Positions 25,700-54,800 of a stretch of DNA of 64,000 bases are shown here, piece after piece (the first letter of the stretch is position 1; the number at the start of each line of letters is the position of its first letter). The notes beneath the pieces are model-generated. The model saw only the letters and a program-made list of their open reading frames with translations, ran no database searches and was not told where the DNA came from. The DNA is taken from assembly GCF_964355755.1 (NCBI RefSeq), contig NC_092670.1, positions 2,135,001 through 2,199,000 of the forward strand, read 5' to 3'. The translations under genes and the position numbers were made by a program. Source of the DNA: Antedon mediterranea (lineage: Eukaryota; Echinodermata; Crinoidea; Comatulida; Antedonidae).

Positions 25700-26074
25700 G
25701 ATTAGGCCCTCCACGGACCCAATGCAGCGCCTACCAGATCAGTACACCGGGAGACAGTACCCTACTCTTTGCGAAAAGTGTACAAAGTTCTTTAATGTGC
25801 ACTATGTACATAGGACCAACAGCTTTATGTCCTATCCGAAAGATGAGACAATGAGAGTAAAACATCTTGCCTAAGGACACAGTTAATATGATACAGATAG
25901 GCTTGGACCCATGCCTATCACATGCTAGTCCGATATTATCATTACACCACCACTCTCCAGTATATACAGCACCCTCCACGACATTCTCCCATCCAGAATG
26001 CAACCAGGCCCAACATTGCTTAACTTTGGTGATTTGATGAGAAACAGTGTTTTAATGCTGTCTATGGTTGTAGT
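25700..26074 (-). mobile_element. Chimeric 5S rRNA-tRNA SINE, copy 2 (fuller length)
   Basis: On the - strand: a 5S-like head (caccaaagttaagcaatgtt, ctggatgggaga, ending gggtgctgtatata), then the tRNA-like part with tggtgtaatga and a decayed B box gggtccaagc, then the body. Unlike the copy at 10076-10385 it keeps ~90 bp of core (ggacataaagctgttggtcc, cacttttcgcaaagagtagg) before the shared tail gggtccgtggagggcctaat. The core resembles conserved central domains found in several metazoan SINE families; I cannot name the domain without alignment. Confidence 0.8.
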
Positions 26075-27080: not shown

Positions 27081-29380
27081 TTATGACTCTTCCATTGGAC
27101 TTTGCGATTGTGACTCCGTCATTTTAGATATCATGTCTGTAACGTCTGTGTGGCCCATATCGTTAGCCAAGTCCAGCGGGGTTATTCCACCCATACTAGC
27201 CTGCACGTCTGCACCAGCTTCTATCAACAATTGACATACATCTTGATGGCCTGATAAAAGAATATATTACATGATTACTTACACCATAATATTTGCTTTT
27301 TGTTTAAATATTTTATTATTAAACTTTAATTTTGAACACCAAGCTTGCATGTATACAATTCTAGGTTTGATTCTCCTGGTAGTTAAACTGCTAAATGCCA
27401 ATTTTTCTTGGTCCACTTAAGCCTACATCCTATTTCTAGGAGATGGGCTCACAAGTAAGAACCTTGGCTCCCACATAGGTCTTGTTATTAGATTTTAAAA
27501 AACCAGGCCCCAAAAATCTATAATTAAAGGAAGCTTTAGTTGTTTAATTCCTAAAGCTTTGTCTACACTATCAAACTAGTGTGACAAAAAAATGTTGATG
27601 TGCCAAAATATGGTAGTGATATGATATCACAATGTTCATACATTTTTTGTCACATAAAGTTTGATAGAGTAGACAGAGCTTTATAACACTGGTACCTTGC
27701 ATAACAGCCAGGTGAAGTGGTGTAGCATCATCACATTTAACGTTCTTGCAGTTCACGTTTGCATTTCCTTTCTCCAGTAGCAAACGCACTATTGACATGC
27801 TGCCCATGTTGGCAGCAGTATGAAGCGCCATGTTACCAGAGTCGGCTGGATTGTTTATGTCGGGCCTTGGCTTCACCTGAAAATATCAAAAACAGAATTT
27901 TACTATATATGTTTGTTGTGTATTGTTTTTCAATGTACGTTTTTTACAGGCTCTGCCCTATGTTGTATGTCCGCCATCTTAAATTTGATCTTTTTTTTAT
28001 CAAAATAAAGATTCGATAGTTATTTATATATGAGATAATGTCATACAAAAAAACATACAATTTATAAAATAGTTTGGTTTAGGCATTTATTTTAAAGGAT
28101 ATGAAAAATTGTGTTATAAGTAGTATTTTGATGTGTTTTCATAATCCAAATCGGCCTATTCCATTATAAAAATATAATTCTCCCCATGGGCCTGTACATT
28201 ATTTACTCCTGCATACCTTGGTAAGCAGATACAAGAGAGCAGTTTCCTGGTTCTTGGTGACCGCTTCAAACACCAGTGAGCGTTTCTGAGTATCCAACAC
28301 ATCTGCTGAAATCTTATTAGCCTTGAAATAATAATGTAGAAAATGCACGTATCCCTGACCAGTAGCCACAAATACTCTTTGAGCAGCGGTATCTTTAGAT
28401 TGTTCTTCAATTGGTGTAATATCGGTGTTCGAATCACTGATTAATCTACGGTAAAAATTAACCGCTGCAGTCCAGATATTTAATAAAGCAAACGCCCTCG
28501 TTGCCAGCATCCATTGTGCAAATTTACGATTTCTTGTGGATATTTTGACATCTGTAAGCAGCTCTTTGTACGCGTCAGTTCTGTCAGATGTAAGCGTATC
28601 TAAAATGTCAAGGAATATATATGGTCCACGAAGAGTACACAACCTTGTCGGATACTCTCGTACAACTGCAGAAACCAACTTGCGTAGATCAGTCAATTTT
28701 ACTTTTTGTTGTTCGATTCCTACTTGAAACGCAAATCTAAGTTCATCATTGATTATCCCAATTTCAAGTTTATACAGATCTAGTTTCTGTCTGTCAGGGA
28801 TTTTTTGTAGCCAAAAATTTGCAAAATGGACAAAGTTGTAATTATTATGACACCATGACGATAACTCATTTACCAATTGGTTCGCACGTTTTAAAAAAGA
28901 TTCAACGCAACTTTCATCCATATACTCAAGTACGTTGTCAAAGTTACCAGTAGATGATAGAGGGCGGGCTTCATCACTATTAATTGACCTTGATAAGGAT
29001 GACTGGACAGGTGGTAGTGGTTTTTTAGCTAACTTGAAATCATTCGTATGATTAGACTCATTTTGTTTTGAACCACTGACTTTTCCAGAAAACTGAATTT
29101 CTGCTTTTTTAAACTTATGTTTAGTTTGCTTTGCAGTAGAGGGTGGTTTTGGAACTATGGTAGTATTGATAGCATGATTCACTTTTGCTGAATTTTCTCG
29201 TAGAGTCGTTGTACCATCTGATAAAATGCTCATTGAACTAAATGGACGGACTAAGCTTTCATCGTCGCTATACTCATCATCACTTTCACGGATTGTCAAC
29301 CGTGAAACGCAGACAAGTTCTCGTAAATCTTTTACACTCCGTGACATCTTGTTTTGTTGAATCAAAATGTACAATTGCAT
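27081..29380 (-). CDS. Ankyrin-repeat protein with a long unrecognised N-terminal region (3 exons)
   Basis: On the - strand the exons are 29380-28217, 27876-27696 and 27250-27081, with GT/AG borders (AAG/gtatgc, tcag/GTGAAG, CAAG/gtacca, tcag/GCCATC). They join in phase to 504 codons plus TAA. An in-frame TGA sits directly before the ATG at 29380; a second ATG at 29347 (M12) has better context and may be the real start. Residues ~1-150 are Ser/Thr-rich and probably disordered. Residues ~155-320 form a predicted helical region (SFLKRANQLVNELSSWCHNN onward) that I do not recognise. The C-terminus holds about four ankyrin-type repeats, the clearest being MALHTAANMGSMSIVRLLLE, TPLHLAVMQGHQDVCQLLIE and TPLDLANDMGHTDVTDMI. 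Ankyrin repeats mediate protein binding; the partner is unknown. The intron between exons 2 and 3 contains a MITE. It is transcribed away from the foldback element. Confidence 0.85.
27552..27683. mobile_element. MITE, family GTCTACACTATCAAAC, copy A
   Basis: The left end taaagctttgtctacactat and the right end, reverse-complemented, are nearly identical; the interior has gtagtgatatgatatcac. It is one of four copies in this window (also 57956, 60747 and 62026). It lies in intron 2 of the ankyrin-repeat gene. Confidence 0.8.
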
Positions 29381-30576: not shown

Positions 30577-30585
30577 GTATGTGTG
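30577..30585 (+). repeat. 9-bp target-site duplication, left copy
   Basis: GTATGTGTG directly abuts the left end of the foldback element and is repeated exactly at 50029-50037. Confidence 0.9.
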
Positions 30586-30749
30586 GCTTGTGTCAAGCTA
30601 GCCAACAATAAGCCAGCCAACAATAAGCCAGCCCACTTTTATTTTTTCCAGCCAACAATAACTATGAAACGCCGTTTGTGCATTCTTTACATTTTCATTG
30701 TTACTTATGGCTTTTATGGTATTAGGAATTAAATATTTGTGAGAAAAAC
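30586..30749 (+). repeat. Left terminal domain of the foldback element
   Basis: The tip GCTTG-TGT-CAAGC is a small hairpin. It is followed by ccagccaacaataag-type 15-bp direct repeats (three occurrences of agccaacaata) and a ~90-bp unique stretch (ctatgaaacgccgtttgtgc...). These are candidate transposase-binding sites. It merges into the first satellite monomer at gagaaaaacggcgg. Confidence 0.85.
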
Positions 30750-33700
30750 GGCGGATTGTTCCTGGGATTCACTTGGTGGGATTATACTAGGGTACCCCCT
30801 TAGTCGTCCAGTATAAGTTAGAGTGGGACCACTGGTCCCGTTTACTCAGCCCTCATCTTTAAAATTTGAGTGTAACTCAATTACGATTTTTAAAATATAG
30901 TTAAATTTGAAACTGTATTTGTGAGAAAATGGCGGATTGTTCCTGGGAGTCACTTGGTGGGATTATACTAGGGTACCCCCTTAGTCGTTCAGTATAAGTT
31001 AGAGTGCGACCACTGGTTCCGTTTACTCAGCCCTCATCTTTTAAATTTGAGTGTAACTCAATTACGATAAAATTTTTAAAATATAGTGAAAATTGATACT
31101 GTATTTGTGAGAAAATGGCGGATTGTTCCTGGGATTCACTTGGTGGGATTCTATTAGGGTACCCCATTAGTCGTCCAGTATAAGTTAGAGTGCGACCACT
31201 GGTCCCGTTTACTCAGCCCTCATCTTTTAAATTTGAGTGTAACTCAATTACGATAAAATTTTTAAAATAGAGTGAAAATTGATACTGTATTTGTGAGAAA
31301 ATGGCGGATTGTTCCTTGGAGTCACTTGGTGGGATTATACTAGGGTACCTCCTTAGTTGTCCAGTATAAGTTAGAGTGGGACCACTGGTCCCGTTTACTC
31401 AGCCCTCATCTTTAACGTTTGAGTGTAACTCAATTACGATTAATATTTTAAAATATAGTGAAATTTGATACTGTATTTGTGAGAAAATGGCGGATTGTTC
31501 CTGGGAGTCACTTGGTGGGATTATACTAGGTTACCCCCTTAGTCGTCCAGTATAAGTTAGAGTGGGACCACTGGTCCGGTTTACTCAGCCCTCATCTTTA
31601 AAATTTGAGTGTAACTCATTTACGATTTTTAAAATATAGTGAAATTTGATACTGTATTTGTGAGAAAATGGCGGATTGTTCCTGGGAGTCACTTGGTGGG
31701 ATTATACTAGGGTACCTCCTTAGTTGTCCAGTATAAGTTAGAGTGGGACCACTGGTCCCGTTTACTCAGCCCTCATCTTTAACGTTTGAGTGTAACTCAA
31801 TTACGATTAATATTTTAAAATATAGTGAAATTTGATACTGTATTTGTGAGAAAATGGCGGATTGTTCCTGGGAGTCACTTGGTGGGATTATACTAGGTTA
31901 CCCCCTTAGTCGTCCAGTATAAGTTAGAGTGGGACCACTGGTCCGGTTTACTCAGCACTCATCTTTAACATTTGAGTGTAACTCATTTACGATTTTTAAA
32001 ATATAGTGAAATTTGATACTGTATTTGTGAAAAAATGGCGGATTGTTCCTGGGAGTCACTTGGTGGGATTATACTAGGGTTCCCCCTTAGTCGTCCAGTA
32101 TAAGTTAGAGTGGGACCACTGGTCCCATTTACTCAGCCCTCATCTTTAAAATTTGAGTGTAACTCATTTACAATTTTTAAAATATAGTGAAATTTGAAAC
32201 TGTATTTGTGAGAAAACGGCGGATTGTTCCTGAGAGTCACTTGGTGGGATTATACTAGGGTACCTCCTTAGTCGTACAGTATAAGTTAGAGTGGGACCAC
32301 TGGTACTGTTTACTCAGCCCTCATCTTTTAAATTTGAGTGTAACTCATTTACGATTAAAAAAATATAGTGAAATTTGATACTGTATTTGTGAGAAAATGG
32401 CGGATTGTTCCTGAGAGTCACTTGGTGGGATTATACTAGGTTACCCCCTTAGTTGTCCAGTATAAGTTAGAGTGGGACCACTGGTCCGGTTTACTCAGCC
32501 CTCATCTTTAAAATTTGAGTGTAACTCATTTACGATTTTTAAAATATAGTGAAATTTGATACTGTATTTGTGAGAAAATGGCGGATTGTTCCTGGGAGTC
32601 ACTTGGTGGGATTATACTAGGGTACCTCCTTAGTTGTCCAGTATAAGTTAGAGTGGGACCACTGGTCCCGTTTACTCAGCCCTCATCTTTTAAATTTGAG
32701 TGTAACTCAATTACGATAAAATTTTTAAAATAGAGTGAAAATTGATACTGTATTTGTGAGAAAATGGCGGATTGTTCCTTGGAGTCACTTGGTGGGATTA
32801 TACTAGGGTACCTCCTTAGTTGTCCAGTATAAGTTAGAGTGGGACCACTGGTCCCGTTTACTCAGCCCTCATCTTTAACGTTTGAGTGTAACTCAATTAC
32901 GATTAATATTTTAAAATATAGTGAAATTTGATACTGTATTTGTGAGAAAATGGCGGATTGTTCCTGGGAGTCACTTGGTGGGATTATACTAGGTTACCCC
33001 CTTAGTCGTCCAGTATAAGTTAGAGTGGGACCACTGGTCCGGTTTACTCAGCCCTCATCTTTAAAATTTGAGTGTAACTCATTTACGATTTTTAAAATAT
33101 AGTGAAATTTGATACTGTATTTGTGAGAAAATGGCGGATTGTTCCTGGGAGTCACTTGGTGGGATTATACTAGGGTACCTCCTTAGTTGTCCAGTATAAG
33201 TTAGAGTGGGACCACTGGTCCCGTTTACTCAGCCCTCATCTTTAACGTTTGAGTGTAACTCAATTACGATTAATATTTTAAAATATAGTGAAATTTGATA
33301 CTGTATTTGTGAGAAAATGGCGGATTGTTCCTGGGAGTCACTTGGTGGGATTATACTAGGTTACCCCCTTAGTCGTCCAGTATAAGTTAGAGTGGGACCA
33401 CTGGTCCGGTTTACTCAGCACTCATCTTTAACATTTGAGTGTAACTCATTTACGATTTTTAAAATATAGTGAAATTTGATACTGTATTTGTGAAAAAATG
33501 GCGGATTGTTCCTGGGAGTCACTTGGTGGGATTATACTAGGGTTCCCCCTTAGTCGTCCAGTATAAGTTAGAGTGGGACCACTGGTTCCATTTACTCAGC
33601 CCTCATCTTTAAAATTTGAGTGTAACTCATTTACAATTTTTAAAATATAGTGAAATTTGAAACTGTATTTGTGAGAAAACGGCGGATTGTTCCTGAGAGT

Positions 33701-36700
33701 CACTTGGTGGGATTATACTAGGTTACCCCCTTAGTCGTCCAGTATAAGTTAGAGTGGGACCACTGGTCCGGTTTACTCAGCCCTCATCTTTAAAATTTGA
33801 GTGTAACTCATTTACGATTTTTAAAATATAGTGAAATTTGATACTGTATTTGTGAGAAAATGGCGGATTGTTCCTGGGAGTCACTTGGTGGGATTATACT
33901 AGGGTACCTCCTTAGTTGTCCAGTATAAGTTAGAGTGGGACCACTGGTCCCGTTTACTCAGCCCTCATCTTTAACGTTTGAGTGTAACTCAATTACGATT
34001 AATATTTTAAAATATAGTGAAATTTGATACTGTATTTGTGAGAAAATGGCGGATTGTTCCTGGGAGTCACTTGGTGGGATTATACTAGGTTACCCCCTTA
34101 GTCGTCCAGTATAAGTTAGAGTGGGACCACTGGTCCGGTTTACTCAGCCCTCATCTTTAAAATTTGAGTGTAACTCATTTACGATTTTTAAAATATAGTG
34201 AAATTTGATACTGTATTTGTGAGAAAATGGCGGATTGTTCCTGGGAGTCACTTGGTGGGATTATACTAGGGTACCTCCTTAGTTGTCCAGTATAAGTTAG
34301 AGTGGGACCACTGGTCCCGTTTACTCAGCCCTCATCTTTAACGTTTGAGTGTAACTCAATTACGATTAATATTTTAAAATATAGTGAAATTTGATACTGT
34401 ATTTGTGAGAAAATGGCGGATTGTTCCTGGGAGTCACTTGGTGGGATTATACTAGGTTACCCCCTTAGTCGTCCAGTATAAGTTAGAGTGGGACCACTGG
34501 TCCGGTTTACTCAGCACTCATCTTTAACATTTGAGTGTAACTCATTTACGATTTTTAAAATATAGTGAAATTTGATACTGTATTTGTGAAAAAATGGCGG
34601 ATTGTTCCTGGGAGTCACTTGGTGGGATTATACTAGGGTTCCCCCTTAGTCGTCCAGTATAAGTTAGAGTGGGACCACTGGTTCCATTTACTCAGCCCTC
34701 ATCTTTAAAATTTGAGTGTAACTCATTTACAATTTTTAAAATATAGTGAAATTTGAAACTGTATTTGTGAGAAAACGGCGGATTGTTCCTGAGAGTCACT
34801 TGGTGGGATTATACTAGGTTACCCCCTTAGTCGTCCAGTATAAGTTAGAGTGGGACCACTGGTCCGGTTTACTCAGCCCTCATCTTTAAAATTTGAGTGT
34901 AACTCATTTACGATTTTTAAAATATAGTGAAATTTGATACTGTATTTGTGAGAAAATGGCGGATTGTTCCTGGGAGTCACTTGGTGGGATTATACTAGGG
35001 TACCTCCTTAGTTGTCCAGTATAAGTTAGAGTGGGACCACTGGTCCCGTTTACTCAGCCCTCATCTTTAACGTTTGAGTGTAACTCAATTACGATTAATA
35101 TTTTAAAATATAGTGAAATTTGATACTGTATTTGTGAGAAAATGGCGGATTGTTCCTGGGAGTCACTTGGTGGGATTATACTAGGTTACCCCCTTAGTCG
35201 TCCAGTATAAGTTAGAGTGGGACCACTGGTCCGGTTTACTCAGCCCTCATCTTTAAAATTTGAGTGTAACTCATTTACGATTTTTAAAATATAGTGAAAT
35301 TTGATACTGTATTTGTGAGAAAATGGCGGATTGTTCCTGGGAGTCACTTGGTGGGATTATACTAGGGTACCTCCTTAGTTGTCCAGTATAAGTTAGAGTG
35401 GGACCACTGGTCCCGTTTACTCAGCCCTCATCTTTAACGTTTGAGTGTAACTCAATTACGATTAATATTTTAAAATATAGTGAAATTTGATACTGTATTT
35501 GTGAGAAAATGGCGGATTGTTCCTGGGAGTCACTTGGTGGGATTATACTAGGTTACCCCCTTAGTCGTCCAGTATAAGTTAGAGTGGGACCACTGGTCCG
35601 GTTTACTCAGCCCTCATCTTTAACATTTGAGTGTAACTCATTTACGATTTTTAAAATATAGTGAAATTTGATACTGTATTTGTGAAAAAATGGCGGATTG
35701 TTCCTGGGAGTCACTTGGTGGGATTATACTAGGGTACCCCCTTAGTCGTCCAGTATAAGTTAGAGTGGGACCACTGGTCCCATTTACTCAGCCCTCATCT
35801 TTAAAATTTGAGTGTAACTCATTTATAATTTTTAAAATATAGTGAAATTTGAAACTGTATTTGTGAGAAAACGGCGGATTGTTCCTGAGAGTCACTTGGT
35901 GGGATTATACTAGGGTACGTCCTTAGTCGTCCAGTATAAGTTAGAGTGGGACCACTGGTCCGGTTTACTCAGCCCTCATCTTTAAAAATTGAGTGTAACT
36001 CATTTACGATTTTTAAAATATAGTGAAATTTGATACTGTATTTGTGAGAAAATGGCGGATTGTTCCTGGGAGTCACTTGGTGGGATTATACTAGGGTACC
36101 TCCTTAGTCGTACAGTATAAGTTAGAGTGGGACCACTGGTACTGTTTACTCAGCCCTCATTTTTTAAATTTGAGTGTAACTCATTTACGATCAAAAAAAT
36201 ATAGTGAAATTTGATACTGTATTTATGAGAAAATGGCGGATTGTTCCTGGGAGTCACTTGGTGGGATTATACTAGGTTACCCCTTAGTCGTCCAGTATAA
36301 GTTAGAGTGGGACCACTGGTCCGGTTTACTCAGCCCTCATCTTTAAAATTTGAGTGTAACTCATTTACGATTTTTAAAATATAGGGAAATTTGATACTGT
36401 ATTTGTGAGAAAATGGCGGATTGTTCCTGGGAGTCACTTGGTGGGATTATACTAGGGTACCTCCTTAGTTGTCCAGTATAAGTTAGAGTGGGACCACTGG
36501 TCCCGTTTACTCAGCCCTCATCTTTAACATTTGAGTGTAACTCAATTACGATTAATATTTTAAAATATAGTGAAATTTGATACTGTATTTGTGAGAAAAT
36601 GGCGGATTGTTCCTGGGAGTCACTTGGTGGGATTATACTAGGTTACCCCCTTAGTCGTCCAGTATAAGTTAGAGTGGGACCACTGGTCCGGTTTACTCAG

Positions 36701-39700
36701 CCCTCATCTTTAAAATTTGAGTGTAACTCATTTACGATTTTTAAAATATAGTGAAATTTGATACTGTATTTGTGAAAAAATGGCGGATTGTTCCTGGGAG
36801 TCACTTGGTGGGATTATACTAGGGTACCCCCTTAGTCGTCCAGTATAAGTTAGAGTGGGACCACTGGTCCCGTTTACTCAGCCCTCATCTTTAAAATTTG
36901 AGTGTAACTCATTTACGATTTTTAAAATATAGTGAAATTTGAAACTGTATTTGTGAGAAAACGGCGGATTGTTCCTGAGAGTCACTTGGTGGGATTATAC
37001 TAGGGTACCTCCTTAGTCGTACAGTATAAGTTAGAGTGGGACCACTGGTACTGTTTACTCAGCCCTCATCTTTTAAATTTGAGTGTAACTCATTTACGAT
37101 TAAAAAAATATAGTGAAATTTGATACTGTATTTGTGAGAAAATGGCGGATTGTTCCTGGGAGTCACTTTGTGGGATTATACTAGGGTACCTCCTTAGTTG
37201 TCCAGTAGAAGTTAGAGTGGGACCACTGGTCCCGTTTACTCAGCCCTCATCTTTAACGTTTGAGTGTAACTCAATTACGATTAATATTTCAAAATATAGT
37301 GAAATTTGATACTGTATTTGTGAGAAAACGGCGGATTGTTCCTCGGAGTCACATGGTGGGGTTATACTAAGGTACGTCCTTAGTCGTCCAGTATAAGTTA
37401 GAGTGCGACCACTGGTCCCGTTTACTCAGCCCTCATCTTTTAATTTGCGTGTAACTCAATTACGATAACATTTTTTAAATATAGTGAAAATTGATACTGT
37501 ATTTGTGAGAAAATGGCGGATTGTTCCTGGGAGTCACTTGGTGGGATTATACTAGGGTACCTCCTCAGTTGTCCAGTATAAGTTAGAGTGGGACCACTGG
37601 TCCCGTTTACTCAGCCCTCATCTTTAACGTTTGAGTGTAACTCAATTACGATTAATATTTTAAAATATAGTGAAATTTGATACTGTATTTGTGAGAAAAT
37701 GGCGGATTGTTCCTGGGAGTCACTTAGTGGGATTATACTAGGTTACCCCCTTAGTCGTCCAGTATCAGTTAGAGTGGGACCACTGGTCCGGTTTACTCAG
37801 CCCTCATCTTTAACGTTTGAGTGTAACTCAATTACGATTAATATTTTAAAATATAGTGAAATTTGATACTGTATTTGTGAGAAAACGGCGGATTGTTCCT
37901 GAGAGTCACTTGGTGGGATTATTCTACGGTGCCTCCCTAGTCGTCCAGTATAAGTTAGAGTGGGACCACTGGTCCCGTTTACTAAGCCCTCATCTTTTAA
38001 ATTTGAGTGTAACTCATTTACGATTTTAAAAATATAGTGAAATTTGATACTGTATTTGTAAGAAAACGGCGGATTGTTCCTCGGAGTCACATGGTGGGGT
38101 TATACTAAGGTACGTCCTTAGTCGTCCAGTATAAGTTAGAGTGCGACCACTGGTCCCGTTTACTCAGCCCTCATCTTTTAAATTTGAGTGTAACTCAATT
38201 ACGATAAAATTTTTAAAATATAGTGAAATTTGATACTGTATTTGTGAGAAAATGGCGGATTGTTCCTGGGAGTCACTTGGTGGGATTATACTAGGGTACC
38301 CTCTTAGTTGCCCAGTATAAGTTAGAGTGGGACTACTGGTCCCGTTTACTCAGCCCTCATCTTTAAAATTTGAGTGTAACTCATTTACGATTTTTAAAAT
38401 ATAGTGAAATTTGAAACTGTATTTGTGAGAAAACGGCGGATTGTTCCTGAGAGTCACTTGGTGGGATTATACTAGGGTACACCCTTAGTCGTCCAGTATA
38501 AGTTAGAGTGGGACCACTGGTCCCGTTTACTCAGCCCTCATCTTTAAAATTTGAGTGTAACTCATTTACGATTTTTAAAATATAGTGAAATTTGATACTG
38601 TATTTGTGAGAAAACGGCGTATTGTTCCTGAGAGTCACTTGGTGGGATTATACTAGAGTACCTCTTTAGTCATCCTGTATAAGTTAGAGTGGGACCACTG
38701 GTTCCGTTTACTCAGCCCTCATCTTTAACATTTGAGTGTAACTCAATTACGATTAATATTTTAAAATATAGTGAAATTTGATACTGTATTAGTGTAAAAA
38801 TGGCGGATTGTTCCTGGGAGTCACTTGGTGGGATTATACTAGGTTACCCCCTTAGTCGTCCAGTATAAGTTAGAGTGGGACCACTGGTCCGGTTTACTCA
38901 GCCCTCATCTTTAAAATTTGAGTGTAACTCATTTACGATTTTTAAAATATAGTGAAATTTGATACTGTATTTGTGAAAAATGGCGGATTGTTCCTGGGAG
39001 TCACTTGGTGGGATTATACTAGGGTACCCCCTTAGTCGTCCAGTATAAGTTAGAGTGGGACCACTAGTCCCGTTTACTCAGCCCTCATCTTTAAAATTTG
39101 AGTGTAACTCATTTAAGATTTTTAAAATATAGGGAAATTTGATACTGTATTTGTGAGAAAATGGCGGATTGTTCCTGGGAGTCACTTGGTGGGATTATAC
39201 TAGGGTACCTCCTTAGTTGTCCAGTATAAGTTAGAGTGGGACCACTGGTCCCGTTTACTCAGCCCTCATCTTTAACATTTGAGTGTAACTCAATTACGAT
39301 TAATATTTTAAAATATAGTGAAATTTGATACTGTATTTGTGAGAAAATGGCGGATTGTTCCTGGGAGTCACTTGGTGGGATTATACTAGGTTACCCCCTT
39401 AGTCGTCCAGTATAAGTTAGAGTGGGACCACTGGTCCGGTTTACTCAGCCCTCATCTTTAAAATTTGAGTGTAACTCATTTACGATTTTTAAAATATAGT
39501 GAAATTTGATACTGTATTTGTGAAAAAATGGCGGATTGTTCCTGGGAGTCACTTGGTGGGATTATACTAGGGTACCCCCTTAGTCGTCCAGTATAAGTTA
39601 GAGTGGGACCACTGGTCCCGTTTACTCAGCCCTCATCTTTAAAATTTGAGTGTAACTCATTTACGATTTTTAAAATATAGTGAAATTTGAAACTGTATTT

Positions 39701-42700
39701 GTGAGAAAACGGCGGATTGTTCCTGAGAGTCACTTGGTGGGATTATACTAGGGTACCTCCTTAGTCGTACAGTATAAGTTAGAGTGGGACCACTGTTACT
39801 GTTTACTCAGCCCTCATCTTTTAAATTTGAGTGTAACTCATTTACGATTAAAAAAATATAGTGAAATTTGATACTGTATTTGTGAGAAAATGGCGGATTG
39901 TTCCTGGGAGTCACTTTGTGGGATTATACTAGGGTACATCCTTAGTTGTCCAGTAGAAGTTAGAGTGGGACCACTGGTCCCGTTTACTCAGCCCTCATCT
40001 TTAACGTTTGAGTGTAACTCAATTACGATTAATATTTCAAAATATAGTGAAATTTGATACTGTATTTGTGAGAAAACGGCGGATTGTTCCTCGGAGTCAC
40101 ATGGTGGGGTTATACTAAGGTACGTCCTTAGTCGTCCAGTATAAGTTAGAGTGCGACCACTGGTCCCGTTTACTCAGCCCTCATCTTTTAATTTGCGTGT
40201 AACTCAATTACGATGAAATTTTTTAAATATAGTGAAAATTGATACTGTATTTGTGAGAAAATGGCGGATTGTTCCTGGGAGTCACTTGGTGGGATTATAC
40301 TAGGGTACCTCCTCAGTTGTCCAGTATAAGTTAGAGTGGGACCACTGGTCCCGTTTACTCAGCCCTCATCTTTAACGTTTGAGTGTAACTCAATTACGAT
40401 TAATATTTTAAAATATAGTGAAATTTGATACTGTATTTGTGAGAAAATGGCGGATTGTTCCTGGGAGTCACTTAGTGGGATTATACTAGGTTACCCCCTT
40501 AGTCGTCCAGTATAAGTTAGAGTGGGACCACTGGTCCCGTTTACTCAGCCCTCATCTTTAACGTTTGAGTGTAACTCAATTACGATTAATATTTTAAAAT
40601 ATAGTGAAATTTGATACTGTATTTGTGAGAAAATGGCGGATTGTTCCTGGGAGTCACTTGGTGGGATTATACTAGGGTACCTCCTTAGTCGTCCAGTATC
40701 AGTTAGAGTGGGACCACTGGTCCGGTTTACTCAGCCCTCATCTTTAACGTTTGAGTGTAACTCAATTACGATTAATATTTTAAAATATAGTGAAATTTGA
40801 TACTGTATTTGTGAGAAAACGGCGGATTGTTCCTGAGAGTCACTTGGTGGGATTATACTACGGTGCCTCCCTAGTCGTCCAGTATAAGTTAGAGTGGGAC
40901 CACTGGTCCCGTTTACTAAGCCCTCATCTTTTAAATTTGAGTGTAACTCATTTACGATTTTAAAAATATAGTGAAATTTGATACTGTATTTGTAAGAAAA
41001 CGGCGGATTGTTCCTCGGAGTCACATGGTGGGGTTATACTAAGGTACGTCCTTAGTCGTCCAGTATAAGTTAGAGTGCGACCACTGGTCCCGTTTACTCA
41101 ACCCTCATCTTTTAAATTTGAGTGTAACTCAATTACGATAAAATTTTTAAAATATAGTGAAATTTGATACTGTATTTGTGAGAAAATGGCGGATTGTTCC
41201 TGGGAGTCACTTGGTGGGATTATACTAGGGTACCCTCTTAGTTGTCCAGTATAAGTTAGAGTGGGACTACTGGTCCCGTTTACTCAGCCCTCATCTTTAA
41301 AATTTGAGTGTAACTCATTTACGATTTTTAAAATATAGTGAAATTTGAAACTGTATTTGTGAGAAAACGGCGGATTGTTCCTGAGAGTCACTTGGTGGGA
41401 TTATACTAGGGTACACCCTTAGTCGTCCAGTATAAGTTAGAGTGGGACCACTGGTCCCGTTTACTCAGCCCTCATCTTTAAAATTTGAGTGTAACTCATT
41501 TACGATTTTTAAAATATAGTGAAATTTGATACTGTATTTGTGAGAAAACGGCGTATTGTTCCTGAGAGTCACTTGGTGGGATTATACTAGAGTACCTCTT
41601 TAGTCATCCTGTATAAGTTAGAGTGGGACCACTGGTCCCGTTTACTCAGCCCTCATCTTTAACATTTGAGTGTAACTCAATTACGATTAATATTTTAAAA
41701 TATAGTGAAATTTGATACTGTATTTGTGTAAAAATGGCGGATTGTTCCTGGGAGTCACTTGGTGGGATTATACTAGGTTACCCCCTTAGTCGTCCAGTAT
41801 AAGTTAGAGTGGGACCACTGGTCCGGTTTACTCAGCCCTCATCTTTAAAATTTGAGTGTAACTCATTTACGATTTTTAAAATATAGTGAAATTTGATACT
41901 GTATTTGTGAAAAATGGCGGATTGTTCCTGGGAGTCACTTGGTGGGATTATACTAGGGTACCCCCTTAGTCGTCCAGTATAAGTTAGAGTGGGACCACTA
42001 GTCCCGTTTACTCAGCCCTCATCTTTAAAATTTGAGTGTAACTCATTTACGATTTTTAAAATATAGTGAAATTTGAAACTGTATTTGTGAGAAAACGGCG
42101 GATTGTTCCTGAGAGTCACTTGGTGGGATTATACTAGGGTACCTCCTTAGTCGTACAGTATAAGTTAGAGTGGGACCACTGGTACTGTTTACTCAGCCCT
42201 CATCTTTTAAATTTGAGTGTAACTCATTTACGATTAAAAAAATATAGTGAAATTTGATACTGTATTTGTGAGAAAATGGCGGATTGTTCCTGGGAGTCAC
42301 TTGGTGGGATTATACTAGGGTACCTCCTTAGTTGTCCAGTATAAATTAGAGTGGGACCACTTGTCCCGTTTACTCAGCCCTCATCTTTAAAATTTGAGTT
42401 TAACTCATTTATGATCTTTAAAATATAGTGAAATGTGATACTGTATTTGTGAGAAAACGGCGGATTGTTCCTGAGAGTCACTTGGTGGGATTATACTAGG
42501 GTACCTCCTTAGTTGTCCAGTATAAGTTAGAGTGGGACTACTGGTCCCGTTTACTCAGCCCTCATCTTTAACATTTGAGTGTAACTCAATTACGATTTTA
42601 AAAATATAGTGAAATTAGATACTGTATTTGTGAGAAAACGGCGGATTGTTCCTGGGAGTCACATGGTGGGATTATACTAAGGTACGTCCTTAGTTGTCCA

Positions 42701-44414
42701 GTATAAGTTAGAGTGCGACCACTGGTTTCGTTTACTCAGCCCTCATCTTTTAAATTTGAGTGTAACTCAATTACGATAAAAAATTTTAAAATATAGTTAA
42801 AATTGATACTGTATTTGTGAGAAAATGGCGGATTGTTCCTGGGAGTCACTTTGTGGGATTATACTAGGGTACCTCCTTAGTTGTCCAGTAGAAGTTAGAG
42901 TGGGACCACTGGTCCCGTTTACTCAGCCCTCATCTTTAACGTTTGAGTGTAACTCAATTACGATTAATATTTCAAAATATAGTGAAATTTGATACTGTAT
43001 TTGTGAGAAAACGGCGGATTGTTCCTCGGAGTCACATGGTGGGGTTATACTAAGGTACGTCCTTAGTCGTCCAGTATAAGTTAGAGTGCGACCACTGGTC
43101 CCGTTTACTCAGCCCTCATCTTTTAATTTGAGTGTAACTCAATTACGATAACATTTTTAAAATATAGTGAAAATTGATACTGTATTTGTGAGAAAATGGC
43201 GGATTGTTCCTGGGAGTCACTTGGTGGGATTATACTAGGGTACCTCTTCAGTTGTCCAGTATAAGTTAGAGTGGGACCACTGGTCCCGTTTACTCAGCCC
43301 TCATCTTTAACGTTTGAGTGTAACTCAATTACGATTAATATTTTAAAATATAGTGAAATTTGATACTGTATTTGTGAGAAAATGGCGGATTGTTCCTGGG
43401 AGTCACTTAGTGGGATTATACTAGGTTACCCCCTTAGTCGTCCAGTATCAGTTAGAGTGGGACCACTGGTCCGGTTTACTCAGCCCTCATCTTTAACGTT
43501 TGAGTGTAACTCAATTACGATTAATATTTTAAAATATAGTGAAATTTGATACTGTATTTGTGAGAAAACGGCGGATTGTTCCTGAGAGTCACTTGGTGGG
43601 ATTATACTACGGTGCCTCCCTAGTCGTCCAGTATAAGTTAGAGTGGGACCACTGGTCCCGTTTACTAAGCCCTCATCTTTTAAATTTGAGTGTAACTCAT
43701 TTACGATTTTAAAAATATAGTGAAATTTGATACTGTATTTGTAAGAAAACGGCGGATTGTTCCTCGGAGTCACATGGTGGGGTTATACTAAGGTACGTCC
43801 TTAGTCGTCCAGTATAAGTTAGAGTGCGACCACTGGTCCCGTTTACTCAGCCCTCATCTTTTAAATTTGAGTGTAACTCAATTACGATAAAATTTTTAAA
43901 ATATAGTGAAATTTGATACTGTATTTGTGAGAAAATGGCGGATTGTTCCTGGGAGTCACTTGGTGGGATTATACTAAGGTACCCTCTTAGTTGTCCAGTA
44001 TAAGTTAGAGTGGGACCACTGGTCCCGTTTACTCAGCCCTCATCTTTAAAATTTTAGTGTAACTCATTTACGATTTTTAAAATATAGTGAAATTTGAAAC
44101 TGTATTTGTGAGAAAACGGCGGATTGTTCCTGAGAGTCACTTGGTGGGATTATACTAGGGTACACCCTTAGTCGTCCAGTATAAGTTAGAGTGGGACCAC
44201 TGGTCCCGTTTACTCAGCCCTCATCTTTAAAATTTGAGTGTAACTCATTTACGATTTTTAAAATATAGTGAAATTTGATACTGTATTTGTGAGAAAACGG
44301 CGTATTGTTCCTGAGAGTCACTTGGTGGGATTATACTAGAGTACCTCTTTAGTCATCCTGTATAAGTTAGAGTGGGACCACTGGTCCCGTTTACTCAGCC
44401 CTCATCTTTAAAAT
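30735..44414 (+). repeat. Left satellite arm, ~75 monomers of ~183 bp
   Basis: Monomers of 181-186 bp carry, in order, aatggcggattgttcctggg, cttggtgggattatactagg, cgtccagtataagttagagt, the near-palindrome gggaccactggtccc, cagccctcatctttaa and tgagtgtaactcaattacga. Higher-order periods are visible: ~1,097 bp (6-mer) in 31.4-35.7 kb, and 2,934 then 2,749 bp (16- and 15-mers) in 35.7-44.4 kb, marked by the rare gcgtattgtt variant at 38617, 41551 and 44300. Confidence 0.95.
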
Positions 44415-47400
44415 ATTAATCGTAATTGAGTTACACTCAAATTTTAAAGATAAGGGCTGAGTAAACGGGACCAGTGGTCCCACTCTAACTTAAACTGGAC
44501 AACTAAGGAGGTACGCTAGTATAATCCCACCAAGTGACTCTCGGGAACAATCCGCCATTTTCTCACAAATACAGTATCAAATTTCACTATATTTTAAAAT
44601 ATTAATCGTAATTGAGTTACACTCAAACGTTAAAGATGAGGGCTGAGTAAACGGGACCAGTGGTCCAACTCTAACTTCTACTGGAGAACTAAGGAGGTAC
44701 CCTAGTATAATCCCACCAAGTGACTCCTAGGAACAATCCGCCATTTTCTCACAAATACAGTATCAATTTTCACTATATTTTAAATTTTTTTTACCGTAAT
44801 TGAGTTACACTCAAATTTAAAAGATGAGGGCTGAGTAAATGGAACCAGTGGTCGCACTCTAACTTATACTGGACGACTAAGGACGTACCTTAGTATAATC
44901 CCACCATGTGACTCCCAGGAACAATCCGCCGTTTTCTCACAAATACAGTATCTAATTTCACTATATTTTTAAAATCGTAAATGAGTTACACTCAAATTTA
45001 AAAGATGAGGGCTGAGTAAACAGGACAAGTGGTCCCACTCTAACTTATACTGGACGACTAAGGATGCACCCTAGTATAATCCCACCAAGTGACTCTCAGG
45101 AACAATCCGCCGTTTTCTCACAAATACAGTATCAAATTTCACTATATTTTAAAAATCGTAAATGAGTTACACTCAAATTTAAAAGATGAGGGCTGAGTAA
45201 ACGGGACCAGTGGTCCCACTCTAACTTATACTGGACGACTAAGGGGGTACCCTAGTATAATCCCACCAAGTGACTCTCAGGAACAATCCGCCGTTTTCTC
45301 ACAAATACAGTATCAAATTTCACTATATTTTAAAAATCGTAAATGAGTTACACTCAAATTTTAAAGATGAGGGCTGAGTAAACGGGACCAGTGGTCCCAC
45401 TCTAACTTATACTGGACAACTAAGGAGGTACCCTAGTATAATCCCACCAAGTGACTCCCATGAACAATCCGCCATTTTCTCACAAATACAGTATCAAATT
45501 TCACTATATTTTTTAAATCGTAAATGAGTTACATTCATATTTAAAAGATGAGGGCTGAGTAAACGGGACCAGTGGTCCCACTCTAACTTCTACTGGACAA
45601 CTAAGGAGGTACCCTAGTATAATCCCACCAAGTGACTCCCAGGAACAATCCGCCATTTTCTCACAAATACAGTATCAATTTTCACTATATTTTAAATTTT
45701 TTTTACCGTAATTGAGTTATACTCAAATTTAAAAGATGAGGGCTGAGTAAACGGAACCAGTGGTCGCACTCTAACTTATACTGGACGGCTAAGGACGTAC
45801 CTTAGTATAATCCCACCAAGTGACTCCCAGGAACAATCCGCCGTTTTTTCACAAATACAGTATCTAATTTCACTATATTTTTTAAATCGTAAATGAGTTA
45901 CATTCATATTTAAAAGATGAAGGCTGAGTAAACGGGACCAGTGGTCCCACTCTAACTTCTACTGGACAACTAAGGAGGTACCCTAGTATAATCCCACCAA
46001 GTGACTCCCAGGAACAATCCGCCATTTTCTCACAAATACAGTATCAATTTTCACTATATTTTAAAATTTTTTTACCGTAATTGAGTTACACTCAAATTTA
46101 AAAGATGAGGACTGAGTAAACGGAACCAGTGGTCGCACTCTAACTTATACTGGACGACTAAGGACGTACCTTAGTATAATCCCACCATGTGACTCCCAGG
46201 AACAATCCGCCGTTTTCTCACAAATACAGTATCTAATTTCACTATATTTTTAAAATCGTAAATGAGTTACACTCAAATTTAAAAGATGAGGGCTGAGTAA
46301 ACGGGACCAGTGGTCCCACTCTAACTTATACTCGACGACTAAGGATGCACCCTAGTATAATCCCACCAAGTGACTCCCATGAACAATCCGCCATTTTCTC
46401 ACAAATACAGTATCAAATTTCACTATATTTTTTAAATCGTAAATGAGTTACATTCATATTTAAAAGATGAGGGCTGAGTAAACGGGACCAGTGGTCCCAC
46501 TCTAACTTCTACTGGACAACTAAGGAGGTACCCTAGTATAATCCCACCAAGTGACTCCCAGGAACAATCCGCCATTTTCTCACAAATACAGTATCAATTT
46601 TCACTATATTTTAAAATTTTTTTACCGTAATTGAGTTACACTCAAATTTAAAAGATGAGGGCTGAGTAAACGGAACCAGTGGTCGCACTCTAACTTATAC
46701 TGGACGGCTAATGACGTACCTTAGTATAATCCCACCATGTGACTCCCAGGAACAATCCGCCGTTTTCTCACAAATACAGTATCTAATTTCACTATATTTT
46801 TTAAATCGTAAATGAGTTACATTCATATTTAAAAGATGAAGGCTGAGTAAACGGGACCAGTGGTCCCACTCTAACTTCTACTGGACCACTAAGGAGGTAC
46901 CCTAGTATAATCCCACCAAGTGACTCCCAGGAACAATCCGCCATTTTCTCACAAATACAGTATCAATTTTCACTATATTTTAAAATTTTTTTACCGTAAT
47001 TGAGTTACACTTAAATTTAAAAGATGAGGACTGAGTAAACGGAACCAGTGGTCGCACTCTAACTTATACTGGACGACTAAGGACGTACCTTAGTATAATC
47101 CCACCATGTGACTCCCAGGAACAATCCGCCATTTTCTCACAAATACAGTATCAAATTTCACTATATTTTTTAAATCGTAAATGAGTTACATTCATATTTA
47201 AAAGATGAGGGCTGAGTAAACGGGACCAGTGGTCCCACTCTAACTTCTACTGGACAACTAAGGAGGTACCCTAGTATAATCCCACCAAGTGACTCCTAGG
47301 AACAATCCGCCATTTTCTCACAAATACAGTATCAATTTTCACTATATTTTAAATTTTTTACCGTAATTGAGTTACACTCAAATTTAAAAGATGAGGGCTG

Positions 47401-49880
47401 AGTAAATGGAACCAGTGGTCGCACTCTAACTTATACTGGACGACTGAGGACGTACCTTAGTATAATCCCACCATGTGACTCCCAGGAACAATCCGCCGTT
47501 TTCTCACAAATACAGTATCTAATTTCACTATATTTTTAAAATCGTAAATGAGTTACACTCAAATTTAAAAGATGAGGGCTGAGTAAACAGGACAAGTGGT
47601 CCCACTCTAACTTATACTGGACGACTAAGGATGCACCCTAGTATAATCCCACCAAGTGACTCTCAGGAACAATCCGCCGTTTTCTCACAAATACAGTATC
47701 AAATTTCACTATATTTTAAAAATCGTAAATGAGTTACACTCAAATTTAAAAGATGAGGGCTGAGTAAACGGGACCAGTGGTCCCACTCTAACTTATACTG
47801 GACGACTAAGAGGGTACCCTAGTATAATCCCACCAAGTGACTCTCAGGAACAATCCGCCGTTTTCTCACAAATACAGTATCAAATTTCACTATATTTTAA
47901 AAATCGTAAATGAGTTACACTCAAATTTTAAAGATGAGGGCTGAGTAAACGGGACCAGTGGTCCCACTCTAACTTATACTGGACAACTAAGGAGGTACCC
48001 TAGTATAATCCCACCAAGTGACTCCCATGAACAATCCGCCATTTTCTCACAAATACAGTATCAAATTTCACTATATTTTTTAAATCGTAAATGAGTTACA
48101 TTCATATTTAAAAGATGAGGGCTGAGTAAACGGGACCAGTGGTCCCACTCTAACTTCTACTGGACAACTAAGGAGGTACCCTAGTATAATCCCACCAAGT
48201 GACTCCCAGGAACAATCCGCCATTTTCTCACAAATACAGTATCAATTTTCACTATATTTTAAAAATTTTTTACCGTAATTGAGTTACACTCAAATTTAAA
48301 AGATGAGGGCTGAGTAAACGGAACCAATGATCGCACTCTAACTTATACTGGACGGCTAAGGACGTACCTTAGTATAATCCCACCATGTGACTCCCAGGAA
48401 CAATCCGCCGTTTTCTCACAAATACAGTATCTAATTTCACTATATTTTTTAAATCGTAAATGAGTTACATTCATATTTAAAAGATGAAGGCTGAGTAAAC
48501 GGGACCAGTGGTCCCACTCTAACTTCTACTGGACAACTAAGGAGGTACCCTAGTATAATCCCACCAAGTGACTCCCAGGAACAATCCGCCATTTTCTTAC
48601 AAATACAGTATCAATTTTCACTATATTTTAAAATTTTTTTACCGTAATTGAGTTACACTCAAATTTAAAAGATGAGGACTGAGTAAACGGAACCAGTGGT
48701 CGCACTCTAACTTATACTGGACGACTAAGGACGTACCTTAGTATAATCCCACCATGTGACTCCCAGGAACAATCCGCCGTTTTCTCACAAATACAGTATC
48801 TAATTTCACTATATTTTTAAAATCGTAAATGAGTTACACTCAAATTTAAAAGATGAGGGCTGAGTAAACGGGACCAGTGGTCCCACTCTAACTTATACTC
48901 GACGACTAAGGATGCACCCTAGTATAATCCCACCAAGTGACTCTATGGAACAATCCGCCGTTTTCTCACAAATACAGTTTCAAATTTCACTATATTTTAA
49001 AAATCGTAAATGAGTTACACTCAAATTTAAAAGATGAGGGCTGAGTAAACGGGACCAGTGGTCCCACTCTAACTTATACTGGACGACTAAGGGGGTACCC
49101 TAGTATAATCCTACCAAGTGACTCTCAGGAGCAATCCGCTGTTTTCTCACAAATACAGTATCAAATTTCACTATATTTTAAAAATCGTAAATGAGTTACA
49201 CTCAAATTTTAAAGATGAGGGCTGAGTAAACGGGACCAGTGGTCCCACTCTAACTTATACTGGACAACTAAGGAGGTACCCTAGTATAATCCCACCAAGT
49301 GACTCCCAGGAACAATCCGCCATTTTCTCATAAATACAGTATCAAATTTCACTATATTTTTTAAATCGTAAATGAGTTACACTCAAATTTAAAAGGTGAG
49401 GGCTGAGTAAACGGTACCAGTGGTCCCACTCTAACTTATACTGTACGACTAAGGAGGTACCCTAGTATAATCCCACCAAGTGACTCCCAGGAACAATCCG
49501 CCATTTTCTCACGAATACAGTTTCAAATTTAACTATATTTTAAAAATTGTAATTGAGTTACACTCAAATTTTTAAGATGAGGGCTGAGTAAACAGGACCA
49601 GTGGTCGCACTCTAACTTATACTGGACGACTAAGGGGGTACCCTAGTATAATCCCACCAAGTGACTCCCAGGAACAATCCGCCATTTTCTCACAAATACA
49701 GTTTCAAATTTAACTATATTTTAAAAATCGTAATTGAGTTACACTCAAATTTTAGTGATGAGGGCTGAGTAAACGGGACCAGTGGTCCCACTCTAACTTA
49801 TACTGGACGACTAAGGGGGTACCCTAGTATAATCCCACCAAGTGAATCCCAGGAACAATCCGCCGTTTTTCTCACAAATA
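44407..49880 (-). repeat. Right satellite arm (inverted), ~30 monomers of ~183 bp
   Basis: The same monomer as the left arm, in opposite orientation. A 7-monomer higher-order unit of about 1,281-1,286 bp is marked by aggatgcacc at 45061, 46342, 47628 and 48909. The two arms share the monomer but not the higher-order pattern, so they were amplified separately. Confidence 0.95.
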
Positions 49881-50028
49881 TTTAATTCCTAATACCATAA
49901 AAGCCATAAGTAACAATGAAAATGTAAAGAATGCACAAACGGCGTTTCATAGTTATTGTTGGCTGGAAAAAATAAAAGTGGGCTGGCTTATTGTTGGCTG
50001 GCTTATTGTTGGCTAGCTTGACACAAGC
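49866..50028 (-). repeat. Right terminal domain of the foldback element
   Basis: This is the near-exact inverted copy of 30586-30749, ending ggctagcttgacacaagc at the element boundary. Confidence 0.88.
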
Positions 50029-50037
50029 GTATGTGTG
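50029..50037 (+). repeat. 9-bp target-site duplication, right copy
   Basis: GTATGTGTG, an exact match to 30577-30585. Confidence 0.9.
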
Positions 50038-51892: not shown

Positions 51893-54800
51893 ATGGAGAT
51901 TATGAGATTAAGCGCTTTGAGCACACTGGAAGGCATGTTTCCAGACGCCAGTAAGAAGATCCTCAAGTCTTTAATCAACGATACAATCATTTCAGTTGAT
52001 TTATTGGACCAGGAACAGCTTGTTGTGAGGTGTGTGGAAACCTTACTTTCTATGGATACCATCCCTCAAGAAAATAGTAAGTTAAGTCTTTCACATCTGT
52101 TCCGGCACGATTCCTTTCTGGAAAATCTAACGTCAATATTTCATTTTACGACGCTCCACACGGCTATGCGCCAATTGATAAGCGTTTTGATTGGATTTGC
52201 CAACGCCGGAATGGAACCATCTCGGAACAGGTGTGAAAACCCATTAATCAGCTAGGCTAGCGTGTTGTTTGTGCAAAAAGACAAATGATGAAATTGAAAT
52301 TTCATCATATATACAGTCGACTCCGCCTAAGTCGAATTCGCGTAAGTCGAAAAATCGCGAAAGTCGAATTTTTATGAAAGTCCCAATTCTTTCCTATACA
52401 TTACTGTGTAATTTTTATTTGTAAGTCGAATTTTTCTAAGTCAAAATTCGTCTAAGTCGACGTCTTTTTGCGGTCCGAATACAGACATTCTTTAGTGATT
52501 TATATCGTATAAGTCGAAGTCACAAATCACGCGGCAACAACGCGCTAAAAAAGCCGATGAAACGTACGTAATTCGATAAACAAACGACAGAGGAGATAAT
52601 GTGGGACCATATCGGTTCTCTCAAGCAGGTTGTATAGTATAGGTGGCGTCCTACAACTCGCGCTAGTGTATAGTGTATGAGTTGTTTCAGAGTTGAGAAC
52701 TTGAGCGGCGTTTTGTGGGTACCCATTTTGTGCTAGACAGATGGCAATAAACAATGGATACCGATTTCGAATAAGAACCGAAATATATTTATTATACGTT
52801 TTCGTATTGTTTCGGGCTTAAACCATAAAAGAAAATACAGTTTATCATTGCCGATAAAAGAGGCTTAGCATTTATTAGGCCTAGCTAGCTAGCTAGCTAA
52901 GCAAACTCAATTCAAGAAGGCTCATCGCGTGGGCCACGATCGCGACAGGGTCTACTAGGCCTAGCCATAGCGCGGCTAGTGAGTGAGCCTAGGCCTAGCA
53001 TTTTTTTTGCAAATCTGTAAGTCGAAGTTCGCGTAACTCGAATTTTTATACCGGTCCCATTAGATTCGACTTAGGCGGAGTCGACTGTATATATATATAC
53101 AGATGATTTTACTTTAATTAGTCCAGCGCCTTTTTTTCTAGACAGTAATAATATATAATTTATCAATTTAATGATATTGGGTTTTTTCCACAGAATATCC
53201 TGATGTTTCTGAAACAGTTGTAATAAAAGATAACGAAGATGGTGACGAACCGACAATAGTAAAATCACCAGAAGAAGATGGCTATAAACATTTTCCAAAT
53301 TCTTATATGACACAAGATTCACCATCAAGTTTATTGAAGTCTCAAAAGTTTGGTGTAAAGTCAGAGCAAGCTGTTGTTAAAACACCAACGCTTGTCTTCA
53401 AACCAGAACAAACTTTGAATAACAATGACCTTCTGTCCAATTTCCTTCTTAATACTGATTGCTTACTTAAGAAATCAGAAATATTGATTGATGAACTATC
53501 TAAAACACAGACAAATACTTCTAAAAATAATAACATTTTACCAGAGCAGTTCCTGAATACTTCCAATAACTTGGAAAACGTACAAGCAAATGGTTTCGGT
53601 AATAATATGATTATCGGGACCACCGGCAGCTCAAATAAAATAACAACTGAATCGTGTGTTTCGTCAGACTGTAGCGACAACAATGATACAAGTTACAGAC
53701 ATCAATTAAAGCGCCCCCTTGTTGGTTATGAAGTAAATTCTCCTAAATTTGCCCGTTCGGATATATTTTCTGCTGCATCGTCGTCGGAAGTAGTTCCTTC
53801 GTTTATTCCAGACACAAGATATTGTCTTTCACCAAATTTGTTTCCAAGCTGTCAATTCAGAAAAATCTCTGGTGCATCTTCTTCCATCTCCAGACATCCT
53901 GATGCTCTGTACAGAAGTGACAATTCTACTAGTGATTTCGTTGGTGCAGGCTCTGTGTCTTTTGTGTCCAAATTTGGTGACACAGTAAAACAAAAAAAGT
54001 TTCAAAACAAAAGTAGAGATGAAAATAACATTTTGGTAACTCCCCCAAGGAAAACATTTGGACCAGATTTTCTGTCCAAAAATACTACTGGTTTCAATGG
54101 TGCAAGTGCTTTTTCAAGATCTGCTGACAGAGTTAAATATAAAAGCCCATCATATCATAGTCAAACTAACACAAGTGGAGATAAAAATGCCGTTTTGGTA
54201 ACTCCCCCAAAGAAAACATTAGGACCAGATTCTCTGCCGAAAAATGCAAATTTTACTACTGGTTTCAATGGTGCAAGTGCTTTTTCAAGATCTGCTGACA
54301 GAGTTAAATATAAAAGCCCATCATATCATAGTCAAACTAACACAAGTGGAGATAAAAATGCCGTTTTGGTAACTCCCCCAAGGAAAACATTAGGACCAGA
54401 TTCTCTGCCGAAAAATGCAAATTTTACTACTGGTTTCAATGATGCAAGTGCTTTTTCAAGATCTGCTGACAGAGTTAAATATAAAAGCCCATCATATCAT
54501 AGTCAAACTAACACAAGTGGAGATAAAAATGCCGTTTTGGAAACTCCCCCAAGGAAAACATTAGGACCAGATTCTCTGCCGAAAAATGCAAATTTTACTA
54601 CTGGTTTCAATGGTGCAAGTGCTTTTTCAAGATCTGCTGACAGAGTTAAATATAAAAGCCAATCATATCATAGTCAAACTAACACAAGTGGAGATAAAAA
54701 TGCCGTTTTGAAAACTCCTCCAAGAAACATTTTTGGACCAGATTCTGGTCTTATTGGTGCAAGTGCTGTGTCAAAATCTGCTGACAGAGTTAATCATAAA

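Follow-up and report, generated by a model that had tools for sequence, protein, structure and literature searches.

A satellite-armed foldback transposon of 19.4 kb in Antedon mediterranea and evidence for the transposition of whole satellite arrays

Results

The DNA considered here is a 64,000-nucleotide stretch of the Antedon mediterranea genome (NCBI RefSeq assembly GCF_964355755.1, contig NC_092670.1, positions 2,135,001 to 2,199,000 of the forward strand; hereafter the window, which lies in the contig that we call C1). At positions 30586–50028 it holds an element of 19,443 bp with two satellite arms. Both borders carry the exact 9-bp direct repeat GTATGTGTG, at 30577–30585 on the left and 50029–50037 on the right (+ strand); the + strand of the whole window contains no other occurrence and, as read from the letters, the duplication cannot be extended at either side. 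The chance of 9-bp identity at two given points is 3.8e-6. Counted inwards, the inverted ends of the element are identical over 272 bp. Their outer part is a 148-bp non-satellite terminal domain, which starts with GCTTGTGTCAAGC on the left (30586–30733, + strand) and recurs as an identical inverted duplicate on the right (49881–50028, − strand); all that this domain has in common with the satellite monomer is the junction and 7-base words. Within the left domain, AGCCAACAATAA occurs three times (at 30600, 30615 and 30650), and these copies may be transposase-binding sites. Outside the element, inverted exact 25-mers in the window come from one short pair only, at ~52.3/53.1 kb.

The 13 open reading frames (ORFs) that overlap the element encode 50–97 amino acids (aa), and with no ORF of at least 120 aa the element was ruled out as a gene carrier. 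Its first 615 bp had no match in Rfam, the element ends were not found in plasmids, and neither the ends nor a satellite word were found in viral contigs.

Tandem Repeats Finder places satellite DNA at 30734–44414 and 44418–49880, with a period of 181 and a dimer of ~367–369, the two stretches being in opposite orientation. The left arm (30734–44414, +) has 75 forward monomers, mostly of 181/186 bp, and the right arm (44418–49880, −) has 30 reverse monomers, mostly of 181/186/188 bp, and there is no unique centre; successive monomers are spaced by 181, 186 or 188 bp, in a few cases by 180, 185 or 187. The arms switch orientation at 44410–44440, where ~8 bp of microhomology, TTTAAAAT (identified by eye), directly links them with no middle domain, so that a short hairpin loop is left. 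A first-pass annotation of the window, made from its letters alone, had described a 19.4-kb element with an exact 9-bp duplication, near-identical inverted ends and two opposed satellite arms, all of which these measurements bear out. Its further claim of higher-order structure holds for parts of the arms. In the inner left arm (monomers 32–74), which has a 15/16-monomer pattern, the best lag was 15 (tested to 16), with a mean divergence of 4.4% vs a minimum of 5.6% in 1000 shuffles, and right monomers 1–29 gave a 14-monomer pattern (4.1% vs a shuffle minimum of 4.4%). Left monomers 1–31, in contrast, did not beat the shuffles (best lag 6, 3.4%; shuffle minimum 3.2%, mean 4.6%).

Monomers differ on average by 7.6% in the left arm, by 9.6% in the right and by 9.3% when the two arms are compared, values slightly inflated by the two innermost units, which span the centre. 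The first monomers of the opposite arms differ by 1.1% and the second by 8.6%. In an exact-match scan, the longest exact repeat was 1,735 bp within the left arm and 452 bp within the right, and the terminal 272 bp was the only exact repeat of at least 200 bp between arms. Since long repeats occur within arms and the match between arms is limited to 272 bp, each arm was amplified independently and only the ends are alike.

We searched the genome (354 Mb, 18 contigs) for further copies. The 27-base terminus, with at most three mismatches, has 73 ends genome-wide, and the reversed control has 0. When neighbouring ends are paired, 52 of these give 26 converging pairs 7.5–33.2 kb apart; a 27th pair, C4_17145, with a truncated left end, came from a search with the 164-bp end (105 candidates, of which the best 40 were used). 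Eighteen pairs (7,500–33,174 bp) carry one terminal variant and nine (7,628–27,307 bp) a second, with G at position 19. Two ends on C6 (18981631/19060520), 79 kb apart, were excluded from the element count, and a 548-bp pair on C5 is not an element, its flanks being longer inverted repeats with no duplication at that point.

All 27 pairs are dispersed copies with fixed end points and varying length, as in the foldback class. The arm architecture of that class, inverted tandem-repeat arms with a non-repeated terminal domain outside them, was found in the window element, 11 further copies and one copy of variant two. The arms are kilobases long in every fully read copy, usually with no middle domain; C5_18405 has ~1.4 kb of non-satellite DNA inside its left arm. 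The terminal domain is near-invariant, with 0–3 differences over the 24 ends of 12 copies (three rows of this comparison ran on into the monomer and were counted only up to it). Because of this near-invariance among the compared copies, we do not use end identity to date the insertion.

The check for target duplications covered 26 pairs, all but C7_23903, which was read at its left end. Exact duplications of 8–9 bp, all of distinct sequence, flank 20 of the 26, within the 8–10 bp of the foldback class. By batch, they occur in 11/12 full copies, 2/5 pairs read at their ends and 7/9 pairs of variant two. Eighteen are 9 bp long and two are 8 bp, which fits the Mutator (MULE) superfamily. The identification of the window element as a foldback transposon of satellite DNA is thus supported: other copies stop at the same base and have different duplications.

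C7_1168 (11,104 bp) and C4_3991 (10,927 bp) lie on different contigs and are 99.92% identical over the whole array, their alignment having 10,917 matching and 9 mismatching positions and two gaps. A gap of 178 bp lies at the centre, so that the arm switches of the two copies differ. Their duplications are GCAAGTGTG and ACCACCACC, respectively, and their 200-bp flanks have no similarity above chance (best E 0.09). Near-identical arrays of ~11 kb in unrelated flanks with different duplications indicate that arrays are moved as complete units: nearly 11 kb of satellite was transposed whole and is present at two sites. The suggestion of the first-pass annotation that satellite arrays may be moved by transposition thus finds its strongest support away from the window.

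Kinship among the 12 complete variant-one copies was traced with 828 regularly spaced monomers, 536 of them distinct, irregular monomers being excluded. Exact monomer sharing sorts nine of the copies into three groups of equal size and leaves three on their own, and for 695 of the 828 monomers the nearest monomer is within the same group (including 285 within the same element). The window element groups with C7_1140 and C4_23422. Its 212-bp centre is identical, in inverted orientation, in C4_23422 and has 2 base differences in C7_1140, and the exact monomer types that it has in common with these copies number, in the order listed (C4_23422, then C7_1140), 19 and 26. The left arm of the window element is 98.66% identical to that of C7_1140, with six large gaps of approximately whole monomers, and its right arm is 96.3% identical to that of C7_1140 and 97.9% to that of C4_23422. 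A second kind of centre is marked by a 40-bp word common to C11_35, C7_22485, C7_1168 and C5_18405 and present inverted in C10_22818; this word spans two of the three groups.

Eight pairs of elements were compared arm by arm; exact types were common to corresponding arms only and none to opposite arms. In 16 arm comparisons, the order of these types was set against 20 shuffles: it exceeded the best shuffle in 11, equalled it in four, including the right arm of the window element vs C4_23422, and was lower in one. Since relatives have centres and arm-specific monomers in common yet are set apart by gains or losses of whole monomers, the arms also grow and shrink. These relatives suggest that the window element moved at its full present 19.4 kb. 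For the earlier proposal that the complete unit was inserted recently, end identity is a weak clock, and the full-length move is read from relatives.

A 29-base satellite word, with at most one mismatch, has 1,105 matches in the genome. The 100 that were listed, on C1 and C3, all lie inside five element pairs, so that with this single 29-mer no free-standing satellite array was seen among the 100. The 548-bp relative on C5 has the same terminal domain and about two monomers; in this relative and two others, the terminal domain, with between one and a few monomers, sits inside longer inverted termini. Short tandem repeats occur further out beside one short relative and at C5:15757205. The outer sequence of the short relatives has 52 candidate places (of which the best 40 were used). 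As a guess, the giant elements descend from this family of short relatives via its inner end. The short relatives with this terminal domain in longer inverted termini (L065, L066, L067 and L041, with short tandem repeats on the outer side of L066 and L041) belong to a wider foldback family.

The longest copy, 33,174 bp on C3, has the exact duplication ATGTGCGAG and arms of ~10.0 and ~7.5 kb (estimated from the edges and the listed satellite words) around a 15.7-kb non-satellite block, which lies where the arms switch orientation. The block contains an ORF of 1,108 aa with a PHD finger (24.2 bits, cut-off 24) and a second of 774 aa with UCH (1.7e-20) and Ulp1 (9.8e-19) domains. These are probably one intron-split gene, as P0039, a relative on a public contig, runs continuously through both (71.5% identity to the first ORF and 58% to the second) and the intervening gap is bordered by GT...AG. 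P0038 and P0039 were the only relatives found in the protein collection. In the genome (best 42 of 61 candidates), the first ORF has one full-length match among 30 listed, the others being partial, degraded or distant. The motifs IDATG, MDRAM, HACxSH and TTSVQ(E/D), with acidic residues conserved in the three sequences, are by eye reminiscent of a DDE core; a structure model from two of the sequences (mean pLDDT 31.7) was too poor for use. The sequence features of the 33-kb copy make it a candidate autonomous member.

The first-pass annotation had raised the question of an autonomous copy with a MULE-type transposase; none was found in the family. Of the 36 PF10551 matches that the genome contains, not one falls within any of the 27 pairs (coordinates compared by hand). 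A search up to 1.5 kb from 20 of these matches gave no hit to the terminal domain below E 0.26, only two 13-mers with 2 mismatches. The block protein matched no MULE model, and in hhalign comparisons with six MULE-bearing ORFs it gave probabilities of 0.1–0.3% (56–100% in controls among the MULE ORFs themselves). Several of the 36 MULE matches stand in long open frames and are multi-copy, for example five of 651 aa.

Discussion

We conclude that the window element very probably belongs, as a non-autonomous copy, to a family of giant, satellite-armed foldback DNA transposons whose arrays are moved by transposition. How might such an element move? A transposase supplied in trans would recognize the 148-bp terminal domain, excise or copy the element together with its satellite arms, and insert it by a 9-bp staggered cut; the chemistry may be of the cut-and-paste type. 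Between or after jumps, the arms would gain or lose whole monomers by unequal exchange or slippage, giving each element lineage its own satellite set. One candidate for the transposase is the PHD/UCH/Ulp1 protein of the 33-kb copy. It is quite possible, if short of probable, that these elements represent a new lineage in which the satellite arrays themselves make up the heritable body of the transposon and jump whole at lengths of 10 kb or more, each element lineage evolves its own arm-specific library of monomers, and the driver is a PHD/acidic-repeat/DDE-like/UCH/Ulp1 protein outside the searched families.

Several observations weigh against the interpretation as a foldback transposon family. 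Six of the 26 pairs checked lack an exact duplication: the duplications of C4_3743, C1_25011 and C5_10024 agree at 8 of 9 positions and that of C7_1140 at 7 of 9, the duplication of C3_32277 requires a repeated partial end between duplication and element, and none was found for C4_17145, with its truncated left end. The 21 ends outside the 26 pairs comprise 17 single ends and two further couples, with separations of 79 kb and 548 bp. Full sequence covers 13 copies (12 of variant one and one of variant two), with one more in part; the other 13 pairs, C10_11566 among them, are known from their ends, C7_23903 from the left end alone. No empty allele was seen, the copies read include no full-length sister that is nearly identical to the window element, and the block protein has no similarity to a known transposase among the models searched.

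It is also conceivable, though on balance doubtful, that the 15.7-kb block is an unrelated transposon nested in a satellite-armed element, in which case no autonomous copy has been seen. The single full-length genome match of the first ORF among those listed would fit, as would relics of it elsewhere that are not at listed ends and the failure of the protein to match any transposase model; the foreign DNA in one arm of C5_18405 provides a precedent. Against nesting, the block sits at the orientation change of the arms, and its edges pass from decayed monomers into the block. If a short inverted match between the two satellite edges is set aside, no terminal repeats belonging to the block were recognized.

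An alternative for the arrays themselves is that a short foldback was inserted and its satellite arms then grew in place, without movement of any long array. Growth of this kind is suggested by the whole-monomer differences between the arms of relatives and by exact repeats of up to 1,735 bp within an arm, which imply recent growth. A 548-bp relative with about two monomers exists, and allelic change in copy number is reported for the Drosophila virilis element Tetris in the available portion of its description (PMC4079207). As the whole explanation we nevertheless consider it unlikely: C7_1168 and C4_3991 have ~10.9 kb of array in common at unrelated sites, and other copies have common centres and arm-specific types. 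Moreover, the window element contains 43 monomer lineages (26 left and 17 right, two of them common to the arms; single linkage at 1.1%, two innermost units excluded) that differ more than its ends, which are a weak clock. Partial growth of the arms after insertion is likely.

Arrays of this size are hard to assemble, and the analysis rests on an assembly rather than on reads. That arms or copies were mis-joined in a repeat region is, however, very improbable, as random joins would not give matching duplications at 20 of 26 pairs and the 12 fully read variant-one copies contain no N. Least credible is segmental duplication or reinsertion of an existing array from an extrachromosomal circle, a route by which tandem arrays can spread (discussed as hypothetical in the available part of PMC4079207): random end points would be expected, yet 20 of 26 pairs speak against them, with a fixed terminal base, 8–9-bp duplications that vary from site to site and, where compared, unrelated flanks. 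All 100 listed satellite matches lie inside elements, and among them there was no free array that could have served as a source.

The dispersal of satellite arrays over numerous sites is a long-standing question, for which extrachromosomal circles or unequal exchange are the usual answers. In the transposon family proposed here, ends, duplications, centres and monomer sets together allow a copy-by-copy pedigree of transposed satellite arrays, and the candidate driver is a protein with an unusual domain set.

Foldback arms like those of the Antedon elements are found in FB/NOF of D. melanogaster, where NOF is a coding middle domain present in some FB elements, and in TU of sea urchins. Unlike the Antedon elements, these have much shorter arm units and sizes of a few kb. 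Among elements that carry satellite-like repeats, we know of no inverted arms in the oyster Helentrons. These also disperse satellite-like arrays, according to the accessible sections of PMC7492417, but are of the rolling-circle type and their arrays are short.

The first-pass annotation regarded a repeat unit of satellite length as unusual, a view that earlier work contradicts. The statements on published systems in this section draw on partial texts of the papers cited. Tetris, with its TIR-220 repeat (TIR, terminal inverted repeat), is likewise a non-autonomous foldback with a terminal domain outside ~220-bp tandem repeats and with 8–10-bp duplications (PMC4079207). It has arrays of up to 66 copies, and fibre fluorescence in situ hybridization revealed long arrays between two terminal domains (PMC4079207). 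In contrast to the Antedon elements, the three structurally complete copies contain a middle domain and their TIRs do not exceed 1,735 bp, and the terminal domain and repeat of Tetris have 37 bp in common, unlike those of the window element (PMC4079207). The Antedon elements have kilobase arms, usually no middle domain, and a whole array at two sites. The likeness is judged from the published description of Tetris rather than from its end or TIR-220 sequence. In the view of its authors, transposition may have been disrupted in larger arrays (PMC4079207); the 11-kb pair, with its 99.92% identity, speaks against any general rule of this kind.

Galileo F of D. mojavensis also has ~210-bp tandem repeats in its TIRs and arms that vary independently, but it belongs to the P superfamily and has 7-bp duplications, 2–3 repeats per TIR and longest TIRs of ~1.26 kb (PMC3573991). 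Tm1 of root-knot nematodes resembles the Antedon elements in its foldback-like composite ends, mostly 9-bp duplications, and coding plus non-coding members, and differs in its 13–15-bp units and Phantom-like (Mutator) transposase (PMC3169594). For the Xmix miniature inverted-repeat transposable element (MITE) and Xstir, the available text likewise describes TIR-derived tandem repeats, but no foldback arms of the size seen in Antedon (PMC9659126). Excerpts of studies on giant transposons (PMC6431247) and transposon-derived satellites (PMC9659126; PMC12628747) name no comparable element. A literature search whose scope left out most subscription journals found nothing on Antedon satellite DNA, only a brittle-star study for crinoid transposable elements and satellites, and only Tetris for foldbacks in sea urchins. 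The Antedon elements are thus a much larger version of foldbacks with satellite-length units that were already known; what seems to be new is their size, the near-pure satellite content of the copies read, the evidence for whole-array transposition and the candidate driver.

Other features of the window

The element lies ~1.2 kb upstream of the start of an ORF at 28199–29380 (−), residues 1–389 of which are 100% identical to an A. mediterranea protein; further exons of this gene are at 27879–27694 (98.4%) and 27260–27084 (94.9%). Two 85% identical copies of a repeat with a 5S-rRNA-like head and a tail lie in opposite orientation at 10079–10319 and 25841–26052 (−) and look like a 5S-derived short interspersed element. 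Rfam makes a single 5S match in the window (RF00001, 74.2 bits) and leaves the second copy uncalled. Tandem repeats elsewhere in the window are a 41-bp minisatellite at 10997–12389 (34 copies, 99% match), a 171-bp repeat at 54006–54746, which encodes a repeated protein stretch within a 610-aa ORF (53307–55139), and a 48-bp repeat of ~10 copies at 57300–57787.

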